From positions 6,242,208 through 6,306,207 of the forward strand of contig NZ_JACHIS010000001.1 in assembly GCF_014203365.1 (NCBI RefSeq): a stretch of 64,000 nt of DNA, in the 5' to 3' direction. A program made the translations under genes and the position numbers. The notes beneath the pieces are model-generated. The model searched no databases. It was not told the origin of the DNA and was given only the letters and a program-made list of their open reading frames with translations. Within the stretch, counting starts at the first letter, position 1; each line of letters starts with the position of its first letter. Origin of the DNA: Actinoalloteichus hymeniacidonis. GTDB taxonomy: Bacteria; Actinomycetota; Actinomycetes; Mycobacteriales; Pseudonocardiaceae. Below, piece by piece: positions 32,184-49,832 of this stretch.

Positions 32184-32498
32184 TCAGAATCGGCCGATAT
32201 GGCGGAGTGTCCTGGCACCCTCGGGGCGACGAGCCATCCGGTCCAGGACCGCGACGCATTGCCTGCCACGTTCGTGGAGCTCACGACGGCCGATCCAGCC
32301 CGCCCCGTACCAGCGATACGCCTGCCCCAACATGACCAGCGCGGCCAGATACTCACTCGCCCGCCGAGCCGAGGGTTCCGACAGCCCCACTACCAGTGGC
32401 AACTGTGAATCGACGAGCTCGTCCAGCATGGCGGCGGTGCGCAGAGCCCGCCTAGCCGATGATCCCGATCGAACCCGACGATCCCTGCGCCACGTCAC
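32184..32498 (-). CDS. Small hypothetical protein
   Basis: A 104-residue frame with high G/C in third positions. Its GTG at 32498 follows GAGGTGGG by seven bases. The body is helical and Arg-rich (YLAALVMLGQAYRWYGAGW, RRELHERGRQCVAVLDRMA) with no motif I recognise. An internal ATG at 32429 gives a shorter form of 81 residues. It converges on copD with 32 bases between stops. Real but unknown is my best judgement; a chance frame remains possible. Confidence 0.5.
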   Translation of the reverse strand: MTWRRDRRVRSGSSARRALRTAAMLDELVDSQLPLVVGLSEPSARRASEYLAALVMLGQAYRWYGAGWIGRRELHERGRQCVAVLDRMARRPEGARTLRHIGRF

Positions 32499-32696: not shown

Positions 32697-33611
32697 TCAA
32701 CGATAGGGCGTCCACGGGACCGTGACATCGCCCGATCGCAGCGATTCGAGGCGCAGCTGCAACTGGGCGCGAACGCCGGGATTACTCCGCAGGATCGGCA
32801 GCACACTGGTGGTCAGCTTCAGTTCTCGGACGTCCCGCAGCACGGCGAATCCCGACCAGCGGGTGATGTCGAAGCCGTACTCGTAGGCCAACAGCCGCTG
32901 CTGCTCCTCGGGGTGCAGGAAGCGTTGGGCGCCGACGGCCAGCGGGGTGAGGTCCCACTCCCGGGGGCCGACGCACGTCGAATCGAAGTCGCAGATCGCC
33001 GTGCCGTCCGGCCCCGGGATGAGATTGCCGAGGTGGGCATCGCCATGCAGCACGCCCTGCGGCAAGGGGAAACGCAGGTCGCGCAGCCGGTCGGCCACCT
33101 CGGCACAGCGGCCCTCCAGAAAGGCCCGGTCCCGATCGGACAGTTCCTCCGCGTCGGCGAGTCGCCGATGAACGTCGTCGAGCGGCCGCCAGGTCGGCAA
33201 CGGGAAGTCCGGTGCCTGGAGGCGATGGATGTCGCGGAGCAGCCGGGCCAGGTCCTTGGCACCCGGTGGCGGGCCGACGTGGGGGATCATCTCCCAGATC
33301 GTCGCCACCTGACCCGCCGCATAGACCGGCTGCTCGATACCCGCAGGCAGCCGGACCGCCGAAACGTCGTTCTCGGCCAGCCAGCGGGCGATCCGCACCA
33401 CCTTCTCGGCGCGGTGCCGGAGCCGGGCCGACGCGACGATACGCACGACGTGCCGCCGATCGGCCAGCTCGAACACCGCGTTGTTCGTCACGCGGATCAA
33501 CCTCGCCCCGCGTGGATCGAGTCCGACTCGCGCGCAGATCTCCTCGAGCGCGACGGTCAGCTTCGCGATCGTGAAACGACCGTCGATTCGGTTCTCCGCG
33601 ATCACCGTCAT
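32697..33611 (-). CDS. Aminoglycoside-phosphotransferase-family kinase
   Basis: A 304-residue protein with the APH/choline-kinase fold. The catalytic loop VLHGDAHLGNLI (near residue 189) carries the Asp, His and Asn of the family. AICDFDSTCVGPREWDL supplies the metal-binding Asp. The amino lobe (NAVFELADRRHVVRIVAS) fits an ATP site without a glycine-rich loop. The overlapping ATGA with the XRE-family regulator means the two are co-translated. The substrate is unknown: members phosphorylate antibiotics, sugars, choline or homoserine. Drug resistance should not be assumed. Confidence 0.88.
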   Translation of the reverse strand: MTVIAENRIDGRFTIAKLTVALEEICARVGLDPRGARLIRVTNNAVFELADRRHVVRIVASARLRHRAEKVVRIARWLAENDVSAVRLPAGIEQPVYAAGQVATIWEMIPHVGPPPGAKDLARLLRDIHRLQAPDFPLPTWRPLDDVHRRLADAEELSDRDRAFLEGRCAEVADRLRDLRFPLPQGVLHGDAHLGNLIPGPDGTAICDFDSTCVGPREWDLTPLAVGAQRFLHPEEQQRLLAYEYGFDITRWSGFAVLRDVRELKLTTSVLPILRSNPGVRAQLQLRLESLRSGDVTVPWTPYR

Positions 33612-34990
33612 GCCACTCGGTGGCTCCTGATCCGCTCCGCGAGCTCCTTGCTCATCGGATTGGCGGATCGCTTCTGCGCTAGGTCTTCCAACGGCTTCAT
33701 CCGGTCGAACACCCGCTTGGAGCGGACGTGTTCACTCGCGTCGAGTGCCAACGAGCCCATCTGCGAGCTCTGGTCGGTGTCGCCCTCGATGAGGTGGTTC
33801 AACGCGAGCATCGTGCACTGGAACGCCACATTCCTGGTCGGTGCACCGCCGACGGCCTGGTAGTCGCTGATCGCCCTGTTCAGCGAGTTGATCGCGATCC
33901 GGCTGTGCTTGGGATCGGCGTCGTCCTTGGTGGCCAGCTCGGTGTGGATGGCTCCGATCATGGCGAAGAGGTCGGTCTCGTCGAAGAACCGCACCCAGCC
34001 GGGCGGATCGCTGCGCTCACTGCGCTCGAACATGTCCTTGGCCATGTTGACCAAGTTCTTCGCGGGCCGCTCCATGCCCATCTTCGCGTACGCCCACGCC
34101 TCGTTCGCGCAGAGCACCGCAGTGGTGAGCTGCGAACCGGTGTTCTGGGCAGCCATCTGGCCGAGTTGGAAGAGCTTCAGCGCCTCGTTGGGCTCGTCGT
34201 GGTGTAGGTACAACCGGCCCGTGCGGTAGAGCACGTTCGCGACCAGCGAATCGTCGCCGCCTCGGCGGGCGAACTCGAGTGCTCGCGAGAAGTGTCCGCG
34301 CGCGGAGTCGATCAGTCCGGTGTCGAACGACGTCCAGCCCGCGAGGTTGTGCAGGTCGCCGATGGCGACGAAGAGCCGGTTCTCGATCCCGTCCCGGCGC
34401 TGCGCGCTGAGAAGCTGCTGAGCCCATCTGAGCTGGGCGATCACGGCGTCCCGACAGAAACCGCCGCCGTGTCGGGAGTCCAATGACCGCAGCGCACTGG
34501 TCGCCGCCTCGATCTGACGTACGTCGGTCACCCCGATCCGCCCCGGCACCGGGGTCTGATCCGAGGTAGGCGCCCAAACCTCGTCTTCTCCGAAGACGGC
34601 AGCCCCGACGGTCACGGCGGCAGCGTGCGCCAGGAATTTACGGCGCTTCACCGTTTCGTCCTCCTCCGACTTTGAGTCACCAGTCACGCCAACGACCTTG
34701 ATCGCGGTGCCCTCGTCATAGGCCAAGCCCATGAACCCCCGAGGAACCCGGAGCCCGTCTGCAATCCGGACCAGCACGTCATAAGCCATGACCTGTCGGC
34801 CCTTGAGGATCTCCGAGACCTCGGACTGCGACTGCCCTGTCGCGGCGGCGATCTGACGCTGAGAGATGCCGTGTTTGCGTAGCAACCGATAGACGGCGCT
34901 GATCTCGCGCTTGAGAAGCGCGTCGCGCATCTCTTGGCCCTCCCAGAACTCGGGTGTAACAAGAGCGCTGCGCGTACCGATGGTGTTCAT
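33608..34990 (-). CDS. XRE-family regulator with TPR-like carboxy region
   Basis: A 460-residue protein from the ATG at 34990, which follows GGGAGGGGG; a longer frame lacks a binding site. Residues about 29-90 form an HTH: LLRKHGISQRQIAAATGQSQSEVSEIL. The rest is a long helical array with TPR-like repeats (LGQMAAQNTGSQLTTAVLCANEAWAYAKMG, NRAISDYQAVGGAPTRNVAF). This build is common in streptomycetes and relatives, often next to small genes of unknown function, as here on the other strand. It may control its own operon and the divergent pair. The kinase gene overlaps it. Confidence 0.88.
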   Translation of the reverse strand: MNTIGTRSALVTPEFWEGQEMRDALLKREISAVYRLLRKHGISQRQIAAATGQSQSEVSEILKGRQVMAYDVLVRIADGLRVPRGFMGLAYDEGTAIKVVGVTGDSKSEEDETVKRRKFLAHAAAVTVGAAVFGEDEVWAPTSDQTPVPGRIGVTDVRQIEAATSALRSLDSRHGGGFCRDAVIAQLRWAQQLLSAQRRDGIENRLFVAIGDLHNLAGWTSFDTGLIDSARGHFSRALEFARRGGDDSLVANVLYRTGRLYLHHDEPNEALKLFQLGQMAAQNTGSQLTTAVLCANEAWAYAKMGMERPAKNLVNMAKDMFERSERSDPPGWVRFFDETDLFAMIGAIHTELATKDDADPKHSRIAINSLNRAISDYQAVGGAPTRNVAFQCTMLALNHLIEGDTDQSSQMGSLALDASEHVRSKRVFDRMKPLEDLAQKRSANPMSKELAERIRSHRVA

Positions 34991-35219
34991 TTGAACCCCC
35001 TCCCGCTCCAACGGGCGTCTCCCGCAGAGTAAGGCCACGTTGTGCCCCGGTGAAGTCCCGATCGGCGAGGCTGATCGGCTCCACCTAACGCCGCTGACCG
35101 CTTGTCGTCGAAGTGCAGCCGATCAACGCAACTGGGCTCGCCAGGACAACGCTTGTGAATCAAGGTTGTACCCGGAACGACGGAACGCGGTGCGATCGAC
35201 AGTGAGGAACGGAAGAGTC

Positions 35220-36374: not shown

Positions 36375-37403
36375 TCAGCGGCTCCGGCAGATGATCCCGT
36401 TGTGCGACTTGATCTCGCCGTGCCGCAGCACCTCGAACCCGTTCTCGTGCGCGTAGAGCCCGAGTTGCGCGACGTTCTGCAGCTCCCGGTATGAGAAGTT
36501 CATCAGGTCACCGAACAGCCGGTAGAACGCCTTGGTACGCAAGGCGACCCTCGGCGTGGTGAGAATCGCGTAGCCGCCGGGGCGCAGGAACCGTCGGTGC
36601 CAGTCGAAGGCCATCGGCTTGTACTGATCCGGAAAGTGCTCGACCAGGCCAATCGATACGACGACGTCGAACTCCTTACCGAAGTCGAGGTCGCGGATGT
36701 CGGAGACGAGGTACGAGATGTCCATCTCGTCGCGATGCCACACCTTCCGCGCGCCGGTGGCCGGATTCACGCCCAGGAACGGGTAATCGGTGGGGAAAGC
36801 GCCGAATCGGCCCTCGACGCAGAACTCGTCGTAGTCGACCAACACCACCTCGCCGCCGGGATACATCGCCGAGAGCAGCATCGCCTCGTATCCCTCCGCC
36901 GCGCCGAGGAACAGGATCCGCGGCCGTTCCAAATCCAAGCCCTCGAACAGCGATCGCTTGGCTCTCGGGTCCCACACCGTGTCGCCAACCCGATGGGCCT
37001 GGTTCCAGATCGTCCAGCGCGCGACCTCGGAGATCGCCGCGTAGGCGGCCTTGACCTGCAACGAACTGATCCGCATTCCCGCCGTGCGCAGTGCGGCGAC
37101 CCTGGCGCGCACCGGATCGGCGTCGAAGAGCGATTGGAAGGAGCGATTGAACAGTTGCCAGGCGACGGGCACCGGCAGCGATTCCTCGTGCTGCGCCTCC
37201 CATTCCCTGCGGCTGCGCGACCAGTTCTCGACCCGGAAGGGGCGACCCGCCTCCTTCCAAGTCAGGCGCGAGAAATCCAGTGGTCTGGCATCGGCGAAGA
37301 CATCACGCGAACCAGGCCGCAGGTCCGCTCGATACGTGTCACGGACTTCGGTTCGGCCGAGATCCGCGTTCGTCCATCGCGATGACGAGGAAATCGATGT
37401 CAT
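36375..37403 (-). CDS. Class I S-adenosylmethionine-dependent methyltransferase
   Basis: A 342-residue enzyme whose ATG follows AGGAGGCGTC. The Rossmann core spans about residues 160-290. ILFLGAAEGYEAMLLSAMYPG is the SAM-binding loop, VVLVDYDEF supplies the acidic residue for the ribose, and DVVVSIGLVEHFPDQYKP and FLRPGGYAILTTPRVAL match the later motifs. About 150 residues before the core are unusual and probably form a separate helical domain or substrate lid. It is divergent from a TetR regulator and belongs to the block with the isonitrile-synthase-like gene. It could methylate a small-molecule product. Confidence 0.82.
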   Translation of the reverse strand: MTSISSSSRWTNADLGRTEVRDTYRADLRPGSRDVFADARPLDFSRLTWKEAGRPFRVENWSRSRREWEAQHEESLPVPVAWQLFNRSFQSLFDADPVRARVAALRTAGMRISSLQVKAAYAAISEVARWTIWNQAHRVGDTVWDPRAKRSLFEGLDLERPRILFLGAAEGYEAMLLSAMYPGGEVVLVDYDEFCVEGRFGAFPTDYPFLGVNPATGARKVWHRDEMDISYLVSDIRDLDFGKEFDVVVSIGLVEHFPDQYKPMAFDWHRRFLRPGGYAILTTPRVALRTKAFYRLFGDLMNFSYRELQNVAQLGLYAHENGFEVLRHGEIKSHNGIICRSR

Positions 37404-39127: not shown

Positions 39128-42100
39128 TCAGCGTTTCCGCAACCGGATGGTGCCCGCGAACTCCGGGTTCAACCGCGCGCCACGCTCACCCGGCGCCACC
39201 TCCGACGCCGTGATCGGCACCATCATCCACGGCTGCCTATTTCCGATGAGCGGCGAGTACACCGGCACGAACGCCTGGTCGTACAGCGAGACCGCGAAGT
39301 CCGCCGAGACGTTGCCCCGCCGGTCCACGGCCCCGGTCCCGTGCCAGGGCAGCAATCCCGAGCCACCCAGGCCGGAGAATCCGCATCGGCCCGGCCTCGG
39401 CACGTTGGTCAGACGTACGCGGGAGGAGAACACGTCCTCGTAGTGCGAGTCGTGGTCCGCCTGGCGCACGACCACGTACCGCACCGCCGAGCGCCATGCC
39501 CGACGCAACACCTGGCGGCGGGCTCGCAGCACCTCGGGATGCGCCCGAGGGTCCCGGACGTCGAAGACGTCGGCGAAGACCCGTGCCGAGAAGCCCATCA
39601 GATCGGTCGAATCGGGGTGTTCGGGGGCCGTCGAGTACAGGGCCGAATGGAAGAAGTCCGGCAGCGCCGAGAGCAACTCCCGCGCGAGATCGACGTCGAG
39701 CACCCGGTCGTCCGGTTGGAGCGCCAAACGGCCGATCTCCTCCAGCACCCGCAACGGGTCCACGCTCACATCCAGATCTCCGAGCAGTTCGAGCAGGCCC
39801 CGGTGATAGCGCCGGATGCGACGTTGCCGCTCGGCCTTGCGGTCCTGGCTCAACCGCTCGTGCGCGAGATCGTCGATATCGATCAACTCGATGACGTCCC
39901 CGGCGCCGACCATGGCCAGATAATCGCGCAGAATCCGCTGGTAGGCGGTGGTCGCCGAATCGGGCCGGGAGTGGAAGTGCTGACCGTCGGTCAACACCGT
40001 CAGCCGAACCCCGGGCGGATACACCTGGCCGACCGCCTTGGCCAGCTCCCGCAACCGCACCAGCACCCCGAGTTCGGCGAGATCGGGCAGCGGGCCCGAT
40101 GCCTTCAGACCATTCTGGCCGTGTTTGATCGGGAATCCGGTGATGACCATCCGGATCGGCTGGTCGGTGTGCAGGAACGGAAGCATGTCCTGCCTGGCCT
40201 GTTCCACCGAGTAGTTCGACCGCGAGCCCTTGATGAACTGTTTGCGGGTCAGTACGTGGTGGATCAGCGCCACGATGCGATCGTGCGCGGAATCCACCGT
40301 GGCCAGGCGATCCGCGAGGTGCCGCCGGGCGTTGGCGGCCACCCGCACCGCGGCGCTGTCGGCGCCCCGGACCAGTTGCGCGACGATCCCTCGGCTCTCG
40401 GCCATCGACAGTCGAACCGCCTGCCCTCGCGCAGGCCGGTTGGTCCGCAGTTCCCCGATGCGCAGCCCCGCCAGGGAACACGCGTAGGACAACCGGGGAA
40501 GTGCCTGCTCCCCCGGTTCGACCGCCGACCACGGCGTGGTCTCGAAATCCTGGATCGCCTGCTCCGACCGCGCAGCCGGTGCATCGTCGGGAGCGGCCAC
40601 GGCCAATCTGATGGCCGAGGGGAACTCACGGTCCAGCAGCGTCCAGTTGGCCGAGGTCTGCGCGATGACGGCGACCATCGCGAGATCCGGACTGTTCTTC
40701 GCGGTCAACGCCGTCTGTCTAAGCCGCCCGCCGTTGGTGAGGAAGACCTCGCCGCCCGCGTCCGTCACATCCCGGCGGAATCGGCGCAAGCCCGGCAGCG
40801 CACGTTCCGGGTCGGCTAAATCGAGCTGGATCAGCACCGAGGGCCGCTGAGAGGTCTGTCCGGTACGCCGAGCCTGCGTCTGCCTGCGGACCTCGGCGAG
40901 CACCTCCTTCAACCGATCGTCCTGACCGGTCGGCACGCAATGCACGAACTCCCGCAGCGGATGCCGGGAACCGAGCCTGCGCACCGTCTCCGGACGTAGG
41001 AAACGCAGTTCGTCGTGCAGCACGTCCGTCACCGCCCGTCGGACCTCGGCGGCCGAGTACCGGTCGAACCAACCGGTACACCGACGGAAGGCGACGGTCA
41101 GAACGCCGATCAGGTCGTAGAGCGCGCTCATGCTCGCCCCAGACTCACCGGAGTCGGGTCGGCCCGGCTCGGTGGGCAGCGTGGGGTCGCACAACACGAC
41201 CCGACCGGTCAGGTGCAGTTCCGGCGACAGCTCGATGGCGACGTTCTTGTCGTGCAGGCCCGCGAGCCCGAAGCCGTATCGGTCGATCAGCACCCGGAAC
41301 ACCGTGGCCAGCGGTCGGATGAGGAACTCGATGAAATGCTCGAGTTCGCTCTCGGACCTTTCGAAGCGGTTCTCCAGCGCGCGCTGCAGCAGGGTGGGCG
41401 AGTGCCGGTCCTGTCCGCTGGTGAGGGCGTTGATGCTCACCGGCAGGGTCCCGCCGGGGAACTCCGGATGCGCGGGGTGAACCTGCGGTGAGCGCAGCAC
41501 CGCCGTGGCCCCGCTCTCGACGTCGACCAGCGCCGCCAACACCGGGCGGGCGGCCGCATACAACCGCAGCAGCGGATCGGTCCGCAGGATCTCGATCAGC
41601 GTCCAACAACGCTGCAGCCGGTGCTGGGTCTGTCTGCGGACGACGCTCTCGGCGGGCCAGATCTGCTGCGAACCGCCGTAGAGCGGCGCGGCTCCCGGCT
41701 CGGTCTCCAATTCGACCTGCCATGGCCCTCGACCACCGCGAAGGTCGGGCTCGGCCAGCAGCATGGTGTTGGGCGAGGAGGTCAGCTCACCGACCAGGGT
41801 GCGGTATCCGATAGAGGCGCGGTGCGCGTGCTCGGCTCCGGCCACTTCGATCGGGAAGGTGAGGCTTCCGTCCGGATCGGTCAGGAACTCGAGTCTGCTC
41901 GCCGTCTCGGCGGCGAACTGTTCCGGCAGGTCCCCCGAGGGTAGGAGCGTCTCGACTCGATCCGCAGGCAGTAGCGCGCAGCGCAGCAGGAACGGTCCTG
42001 GCGGGGAGCCGGCGGCCGGATCGGACCGAGGTTCGGCCACCTGCCGTTCGCCGAGGACGTCGAAGTTCCGCCGGTCGCCCGTGGTCTGTTCGCGGAACGC

Positions 42101-42472
42101 GCCGCCCGCCTCTGCCTGGCCGACGATGTCCTGTTGCCAGCCCAGATCGGGCCTGACACGGGTCTGGCGGAGTCGGACCAACACCCGATACAGCGCAAGC
42201 CGGTCGACGGGCCCTCGAATTTGGATCCCGGCTCCGGTCCCCGGTCCGGTCAGCAGCACACCCGCGTGGTTCTCGACCACCGTCAATGGGTAGCCGCCAT
42301 CCCGCAGCAGTCCATTGAGCTGGTTCTCGTTGAGAACCTCCTCGGCTGCCATCCGAGCCAATGGGGCCGGTCTCAGCGCGTCCGGCCGAGGAATGCTCGG
42401 TCCGGTGTTCTCAGGCCCGACCTCAGCGGCCGAGTGCCCCCATGACATCAGGAGCCCGTCCTGATCTATCAC
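39128..42472 (-). CDS. Large fusion: IucA/IucC-like amino part and DIT1/PvcA isonitrile-synthase-like carboxy part
   Basis: A 1114-residue protein from GTG 42472, which follows GGGGGAGG by nine bases. Residues about 280-440 resemble the carboxy region of IucA/IucC siderophore synthetases (FIEFLIRPLATVFRVLIDRY, GLAGLHDKNVAIEL near 406, then RVVLCDPTLP), but the usual ATP-site words of the amino region are not seen. Residues about 520-700 are a linker domain (VLIQLDLADPERALPGLRRF) I cannot name. Residues about 728-1060 match the DIT1/PvcA isonitrile synthases: GFPIKHGQNGLKASGPLPD near 781, VYPPGVRLTVLTDGQHFHS and LLPWHGTGAV near 1043. Known members turn Tyr or Trp into vinyl- or alkyl-isonitriles. 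A metallophore-like product is inference. Confidence 0.75.
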   Translation of the reverse strand: MIDQDGLLMSWGHSAAEVGPENTGPSIPRPDALRPAPLARMAAEEVLNENQLNGLLRDGGYPLTVVENHAGVLLTGPGTGAGIQIRGPVDRLALYRVLVRLRQTRVRPDLGWQQDIVGQAEAGGAFREQTTGDRRNFDVLGERQVAEPRSDPAAGSPPGPFLLRCALLPADRVETLLPSGDLPEQFAAETASRLEFLTDPDGSLTFPIEVAGAEHAHRASIGYRTLVGELTSSPNTMLLAEPDLRGGRGPWQVELETEPGAAPLYGGSQQIWPAESVVRRQTQHRLQRCWTLIEILRTDPLLRLYAAARPVLAALVDVESGATAVLRSPQVHPAHPEFPGGTLPVSINALTSGQDRHSPTLLQRALENRFERSESELEHFIEFLIRPLATVFRVLIDRYGFGLAGLHDKNVAIELSPELHLTGRVVLCDPTLPTEPGRPDSGESGASMSALYDLIGVLTVAFRRCTGWFDRYSAAEVRRAVTDVLHDELRFLRPETVRRLGSRHPLREFVHCVPTGQDDRLKEVLAEVRRQTQARRTGQTSQRPSVLIQLDLADPERALPGLRRFRRDVTDAGGEVFLTNGGRLRQTALTAKNSPDLAMVAVIAQTSANWTLLDREFPSAIRLAVAAPDDAPAARSEQAIQDFETTPWSAVEPGEQALPRLSYACSLAGLRIGELRTNRPARGQAVRLSMAESRGIVAQLVRGADSAAVRVAANARRHLADRLATVDSAHDRIVALIHHVLTRKQFIKGSRSNYSVEQARQDMLPFLHTDQPIRMVITGFPIKHGQNGLKASGPLPDLAELGVLVRLRELAKAVGQVYPPGVRLTVLTDGQHFHSRPDSATTAYQRILRDYLAMVGAGDVIELIDIDDLAHERLSQDRKAERQRRIRRYHRGLLELLGDLDVSVDPLRVLEEIGRLALQPDDRVLDVDLARELLSALPDFFHSALYSTAPEHPDSTDLMGFSARVFADVFDVRDPRAHPEVLRARRQVLRRAWRSAVRYVVVRQADHDSHYEDVFSSRVRLTNVPRPGRCGFSGLGGSGLLPWHGTGAVDRRGNVSADFAVSLYDQAFVPVYSPLIGNRQPWMMVPITASEVAPGERGARLNPEFAGTIRLRKR

Positions 42473-48641: not shown

Positions 48642-49832
48642 GTGGGCCTCGTGCAGCGCTTCGAGCGCCGTCTCGAAGGCATGGTAGGGAACACCTTCGC
48701 GCGGGTGTTCGGCGGAAACGTAGTGCCGCAAGAGCTTGCGCAGAACCTCCAGCGGGAGGCTGACGGGCATGTACAGGAGCTGGCGGGTGGCCGCCTGCTC
48801 GCGCCGAACCACTTCGTGGTCACGCTCGGCCCGAGCGACCACGAGCGACTCACTGGTGACGAGCAGCGGGTCAAGCAGCTGCTCGCAGACTGCGTCCAGG
48901 AGCACCTCGCCGAACAAGGGTGGGATACCTATGGTGACGTCGTAGTCTCCTTGGAGCGCTCTGAAACGCTGCACACGGGACAGTTCCGAACCAGTTCGTC
49001 TGTCGACCCGGATGCGGGCAGTCAGGCGGCACCACCTCGCAACGCAGGAGACCGACCCATGAGCCAGCCCCCCGGCCAGCAGTACCCCGAGAGCGACCCG
49101 TACGGCCAGCAGCAGTACGGCTACGACCAGCAGGGTTACGGCCAACAACAACAGCAGTACGGCTACGACCAGCAGGGTTACGGCCAGCAGCAGGGTTACG
49201 ACCCGAACTACGGGCAGCAGCAGGGATATGGCGGCCAGCCCGGTTACGACCAGCAGGGTTACGGCCAGCAGCAGGGTTACGACCCGAACTACGGGCAGCA
49301 GCAGGGATATGGCGGCCAGCCGGGCTACGACCAGCAGGGCTACGGCGGCCAGCCCGGTTACGACCAGCAGGGCTACGGCCAGGGCGGGCAGCCGGGTTAC
49401 GACCAGCAGGGCCAGCAGGGTTACGGCCAGCAGGGCTATGACCAGCAGGGCTACGGCCAGCAGCAGGGTTATGGCCAGCAGCAGGGCTACGGCCAGCAGC
49501 AGGGGGGCTATGCTCCGCCCGCCGTGCAGACCGGCCCTCGGCAGATCACCGCGACCCTGCAACTCGACGACGGTTCCAACCGCACCTATACGCTTGTGCA
49601 GGGAAGCAATGTCGTCGGTCGAGGCCAGGATGCACAGTTCCGGCTGCCCGACACAGGAGTCTCCCGGCGACACCTGGAGATCACCTGGGACGGACAGAGT
49701 GCGACCCTTGCTGATCTCGGTTCCACAAACGGCAGCACCGTCAACGGCAATTCAGTCCAGACTTGGCAGCTCGCGGAAGGCGACGTCGTCCGCATCGGCC
49801 ACTCCTCCCTGGTCTTCCGAAGCCAGGGCTGA
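48642..49832 (+). CDS. fhaA: FhaA: DUF3662 and FHA domain protein
   Basis: A 396-residue cytoplasmic protein starting at GTG 48642. The first 110 residues are the DUF3662 domain ([25 protein letters not shown]). Residues about 145-285 are a low-complexity region made of QQGYG and GYDQ units. The last 95 residues form an FHA domain: [24 protein letters not shown], with Arg and Ser for phosphothreonine binding, and [12 protein letters not shown]. In mycobacteria FhaA is a substrate of PknB-type kinases and tunes peptidoglycan synthesis through MviN/MurJ. It opens the growth-control gene cluster. Confidence 0.97.
49080..49510 (+). repeat. Tandem coding repeats in fhaA (Gln/Gly/Tyr-rich)
   Basis: Units built on CAGCAGGGTTACGGC recur with spacer variants, including a longer duplicated block (about 49180-49250 and 49253-49323). 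They encode the Gln/Tyr/Gly-rich linker between the two FhaA domains. Copy number is likely to vary between strains. Confidence 0.9.

Follow-up and report, generated by a model that had tools for sequence, protein, structure and literature searches.

Isonitriles are rare, metal-binding and bioactive compounds. In the known reaction of isonitrile synthases (ICS), ribulose-5-phosphate supplies a carbon that is joined to the nitrogen of L-Trp or L-Tyr (PMC7949033). The common bacterial architectures given in one survey are the solo ICS and the ICS-dioxygenase, to which fungi add a fusion with a nonribosomal peptide synthetase (ICS-NRPS) (PMC5974471), and another gives the same three types for fungi (PMC10153163). 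PvcA of Pseudomonas aeruginosa and PIsnA (PDB 3e59, 9dh4, 9dhm) are solo enzymes of ~315-330 residues. In XanB, IcsB and IsnAB (ICS-dioxygenase) and in CrmA (ICS-NRPS), the ICS is joined to TauD or NRPS domains (PMC5974471). Here, we analyse a window of 64,000 nucleotides (the whole stretch of DNA under study) from Actinoalloteichus hymeniacidonis, whose genome is a single contig of 6,306,207 bases. One of its genes encodes a fusion protein with 725 extra residues in front of a DIT1/PvcA domain. Unlike the partners described above, these comprise a domain with the predicted fold of NRPS-independent siderophore (NIS) synthetases and an apparent remnant of a HAD phosphatase (table 1). Our preferred reading, to which we give a probability of roughly 0.58, is that the NIS-fold domain has probably lost catalysis and that the DIT1/PvcA domain likely forms an isonitrile by condensation of an amino acid with a pentulose phosphate.

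The translation contains all the words quoted in a preliminary description of this DNA (FPIKHG, GPLPDLAE, PPGVRLTVLTDG, PWHGTGAV, LHDKNVAIEL and VLCDPTLP), which had read it as a DIT1/PvcA-like domain fused behind an IucA/IucC-like part in one chain. The fusion stands, and the first half of the claim is firmly supported: PF05141 matches residues 766-891 with E 6.9e-20 (72.1 bits against a curated cut-off of 26.4; profile positions 4-121 of 273), and structure comparison predicts the whole PvcA fold across the ICS domain. The FPxK, K, PDxxE, PPG and DG residues of DIT1/PvcA are kept in the fusion, and the first half of the active site is invariant in its family. Because these residues are intact, we infer a reaction of the PvcA/IsnA type, and the fusion is, judged from its sequence, likely isonitrile-forming. 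The boundaries given earlier need correction: the domain starts near residue 726, and the NIS-like part extends to ~511 and not to 450. The later part of the linker between the HAD remnant and the ICS domain is also present in ICS-only relatives. We considered residues 599-651 as a tandem ICS copy, given a weak second PDB match there (~6 bits) to the PvcA C-terminus, and rejected this since they align as a strand of the HAD remnant.

Table 1. Features of the fusion gene and of its surroundings, in positions of the window. Ratios are the dN/dS ranges described in the text.
Feature	Residues	Position	Strand	dN/dS	Remarks
Whole fusion gene (NIS-like / HAD remnant / ICS)	1-1114	39128..42472	-		1114 aa, GTG start
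Predicted NIS (IucA/IucC) synthetase fold	36-511	40940..42367	-	0.21-0.30	
HDKN at the NIS catalytic H-x-x-N place	407-410	41243..41254	-		not family-conserved
Apparent HAD phosphatase remnant	540-630	40583..40855	-	0.29-0.42	
Conserved linker	631-725	40298..40582	-	0.16-0.19	
DIT1/PvcA isonitrile-synthase domain	726-1114	39131..40297	-	0.13-0.21	
GFPIKHGQNGLKASGPLPDLAE	779-800	40073..40138	-		K783, K790, D797, E800; conserved with PvcA-like synthases
Class I SAM methyltransferase		36375..37403	-		Pfam Methyltransf_23
NsdA-family TPR regulator		33608-35038	-		
APH-type kinase		32697-33611	-		follows NsdA-type regulator
Small protein		32184-32429	-		comes after APH kinase
Protein of ~202 residues		43719-44333	-		no Pfam/NCBIfam match
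FhaA-type protein		48642-49832	+		FhaA_N and FHA domains

The IucA/IucC likeness of the first part holds at the level of the predicted fold and, more weakly, of profile-profile alignment, with no Pfam match. IucA_IucC (PF04183) and FhuF (PF06276) gave no match at E<=10 in the 36 + 29 family members scanned, with the proviso that HMMER filters may drop weak ones, and neither Pfam nor NCBIfam assigned an NIS family to any fusion-family protein scanned. We therefore turned to fold comparison, in which the NIS match spans 323 residues and AcsD, SbnC, AlcC, AsbB, IucC and DesD share the predicted fold of residues 36-511, with a colinear C-lobe. When profiles were compared by hhalign with 21 NIS sequences, residues 36-540 gave P 1.1e-3 (80 columns) and the C-lobe P 6.2e-5 (122 columns), whereas the HAD and ICS parts, run against this NIS profile as controls, gave 0.55 and 0.12; an earlier comparison with three NIS sequences had been weak (P 0.044 for residues 36-540 and 0.018 for the C-lobe). 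The N-lobe, which hhalign did not align, is assigned from the predicted fold.

A working siderophore synthetase, as the IucA/IucC likeness had suggested, is not supported by these comparisons. NIS enzymes have a catalytic H-x-x-N motif (H444 in AcsD). At the corresponding columns 407 and 410, as placed by hhalign, H occurs in 6, N in 5 and both in 2 of the 49 aligned family members. The C-lobe (residues 291-511) is present in 49/49, the N-lobe in 26/49, and the latter is entirely missing in the other 23. In addition, the aligned ranges of the six NIS synthetases begin only at their residues ~110-150, and nothing in AcsD before residue 144 has a structural counterpart in the fusion. The NIS-like domain has thus probably lost catalysis.

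The middle part, which had been left unassigned, is no new domain: in relatives, the residues aligned with it form HAD phosphatase domains with a DxD / T / K / DD tetrad. The tetrad is intact in 30/49 family members, Pfam Acid_phosphat_B matches homologues, and the predicted structure of a Streptosporangium homologue contains the HAD fold; residues 540-630 of the window's protein are barely covered by the fold comparison. At the six aligned catalytic positions this protein has Q, D, N, K, A and Q. Compared with HAD class B/C acid phosphatases and the PNKP phosphatase domain, it lacks the cap and, in their columns, the nucleophile Asp, the Thr of motif II and the acidic residue of motif IV; all that is left is the second motif I Asp, together with a Lys that falls in the motif III column. 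The middle part is apparently what remains of a HAD phosphatase after decay.

The decay of this part does not extend to the gene. Orthologues in two genomes of the same genus are 73-75% identical to the fusion end to end, and a protein search retrieved A. fjordicus and A. hoggarensis proteins at 73-74% identity. Comparing the window's gene with two orthologues (Nei-Gojobori method), we obtained dN/dS of 0.13-0.42 for all stretches beyond residue 35; the unstructured tail 1-35 has 0.40, 0.41 and, in the closest pair, 1.04. These ratios indicate that purifying selection is acting on every domain and that the gene is not a decaying pseudogene.

Three protein searches retrieved at least 103 proteins (P0002-P0104, the window's own included), all with a precomputed PF05141. 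This is a lower bound, because only the ~7990 candidates sharing most words were scored. Among the matches listed, every PF05141 relative with a named host is from an actinomycete, and the fusion clade includes Saccharopolyspora, Kutzneria, Nonomuraea, Streptosporangium and Longispora, with a homologue (P0085) in Saccharopolyspora erythraea. In a tree of 49 of the 104 proteins P0001-P0104, which also provided the residue counts above, fused proteins and ICS-only relatives stand together on one side of a 100/100 branch, opposite four PvcA-like proteins. The fusion recurs in the survey of homologues that had been proposed: 61 of the 200 genomes of the same taxonomic family match, by open-frame length with 44 long fusions (one split over contigs), 10 ICS-only proteins of ~500-630 residues and 7 solo proteins of 323-358 residues. 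A class-wide search matched one genome out of 394, namely that of the window, so either the family is patchy or this sample is poor in the orders where it occurs. A pattern scan of genome contigs with the window's protein alone found no relative, and an alignment-based scan found 51 loci. In Saccharopolyspora-type genomes (loci L043, L044, L060 and L061), two diverged fused ICS paralogues of ~850-890 and 1130-1145 residues lie ~7-10 kb apart and flank the NsdA-APH genes.

The preliminary description knew of no enzyme with this architecture, and our searches of open-licence PMC full texts agree, with no description of an NIS-HAD-ICS protein among the matches listed. The homologues bear the names isonitrile synthase family, pyoverdine/dityrosine biosynthesis, HAD family hydrolase and hypothetical protein. 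Given these names, the absence of a description in our searches and the three ICS types of the surveys, we regard the fusion as a new domain architecture within a known family. For A. hymeniacidonis HPA 177, a published table of 25 biosynthetic clusters lists siderophores and, among the entries shown, no isonitrile cluster (PMC5168871).

The fusion gene is surrounded by a block encoding NmrA, TetR, two small proteins, an NsdA-type regulator, an APH kinase, CopC and DUF1775/YcnI, with CopD also nearby. The order TetR-c5-c7-NsdA-APH-CopC-YcnI is kept in 14/14 chosen ICS-less loci (NmrA in 8 of them, where some stretches end before its place), and CopC and YcnI homologues are equally near in genomes without an ICS gene. 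As the order is the same without the ICS, these neighbours are not evidence of function, and we rejected the copper genes, TetR, the NsdA-type regulator and the APH kinase as functional partners. The metal-binding product that the preliminary description had proposed is conjectural. The APH gene occurs in 172/200 genomes of the taxonomic family. In ICS-only lineages the NsdA/APH pair precedes the ICS gene, with the APH gene directly upstream in 9/11 short loci; we think that one of the two others (L148) is the A. caeruleus fusion divided by the gene caller. In the ICS-less loci L102, L104, L112 and L115, the ICS insertion spot, which lies between TetR and the pair of small proteins, is occupied by what we read by eye as family 1 glycosidase (GH1) or MFS genes, and it is possibly a site of lineage-specific cargo.

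Outside the conserved block, several loci have a biosynthetic context. In Catellatospora tritici, ICS, MFS and ATP-grasp genes overlap by 4 bases and lie beside an AMP-binding enzyme, and in Longispora albida the ICS gene overlaps an ATP-grasp gene. In Streptosporangium carneum, a second copy and a convergent ATP-grasp gene are 4 bases apart, and an NRPS gene with condensation, AMP-binding and PP-binding domains is close by. Such ATP-grasp, MFS and NRPS partners are not adjacent to the fusion in the A. hymeniacidonis genome. Its sole lineage-specific neighbour found is the methyltransferase, which in the neighbourhoods searched occurs only beside Actinoalloteichus copies and is a possible tailoring enzyme.

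Three other genes of the window drew our attention. The small protein behind the APH kinase has relatives in 19/37 clustered neighbourhoods, mostly of 79-128 residues and with a recurring YR-Y--GWIGRREL-like motif, and comes directly after the ICS gene in 8/10 ICS-only loci. The ~202-residue protein is found in 20/37 neighbourhoods, often beside NmrA. The FhaA-type protein has a long low-complexity QQGYG-rich repeat between its two domains and is encoded next to a PP2C gene.

Several observations weigh against the formation of an isonitrile by the preferred route. RSxAWG and SIHPQP, the second-half motifs that five PvcA-like comparators have in common (a feature of these comparators and not a published definition), are absent from the fusion family, which has another set of residues there and forms a separate clade on a long branch. 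The NCBIfam equivalog for PvcA (NF045653, L-tyrosine isonitrile synthase) scores 45.7 bits, far under its cut-off of 600. Substrate or chemistry may therefore differ. According to one paper, yeast Dit1, a member of the DIT1/PvcA family, is not an isocyanide synthase (PMC7345447), so the product of the fusion could differ too. The neighbourhoods add two points: ATP-grasp neighbours occur in only 3/51 fetched loci, and a relative of TauD (Fe/2OG), the partner in classic isonitrile clusters, was found with one TauD query in only 2/52, at 4.8-5.3 kb. A Dit1-like or otherwise diverged ICS domain, yielding an N-formyl amino acid or another pentulose-phosphate adduct in place of an isonitrile, would account for a second-half active site in which most canonical positions differ from the PvcA-like set, for the long branch and for the Dit1 precedent. 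It fits less well with strictly kept first-half residues and a whole predicted PvcA fold, and we consider it rather unlikely.

The loss of NIS catalysis has its own counterevidence, as H407 and N410 are both kept in the window's protein and in the A. fjordicus orthologue. Together with the extent of the NIS fold, and with reports that isonitriles bind copper and that fungal isocyanide clusters are copper-regulated (PMC5974471), this would suit a protein with both large domains active, in which the NIS part would use ATP to activate a carboxylate, then join this to the isonitrile and so make an isonitrile siderophore or metallophore. Such an enzyme is very doubtful when the motif is complete in so few members, the N-lobe is missing from nearly half of them, Pfam finds no NIS family, the first part of AcsD lacks a counterpart and the copper genes are syntenic background. 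A role in regulation or sensing, as a pseudoenzyme linked to the NsdA/APH locus, is also improbable for the protein, if slightly less so. The HAD decay is repeated in the family, the NIS motif is degenerate and 9/10 named ICS-only loci lie directly behind NsdA-type regulator and APH genes, but this block also occurs without an ICS gene, the ICS residues are invariant and the operons of Catellatospora and Longispora are biosynthetic.

Under the preferred reading of an isonitrile-forming fusion, the ICS domain would link a carbon of ribulose-5-phosphate to an amino acid through the amino group of the latter, as the literature describes for PvcA/IsnA. The NIS-like domain would be a non-catalytic scaffold that helps to dimerise, holds the chain together or holds an acid for onward coupling. 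Where intact, the HAD domain may dephosphorylate a sugar phosphate that arises as a by-product or intermediate, and this domain would be dispensable. In a few relatives, an ATP-grasp ligase or an NRPS would probably couple the product onward and an MFS pump export it. More tentatively, the family might be an undescribed enzyme class, in which a retired siderophore-synthetase fold serves as a docking and hand-over platform for an ICS with a rebuilt second-half site, a HAD domain clears the sugar-phosphate leaving group in many lineages, and actinomycetes, S. erythraea included, share unrecognised isonitrile metabolites. The fusion raises testable questions on pseudoenzyme platforms and on the fate of the carbon and phosphate of ribulose phosphate in the ICS reaction. 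The NIS-fold/HAD/ICS clade of actinomycetes, which includes the well-studied antibiotic producer Saccharopolyspora erythraea, offers a genome-mining handle for isonitriles that may have gone unrecognised.
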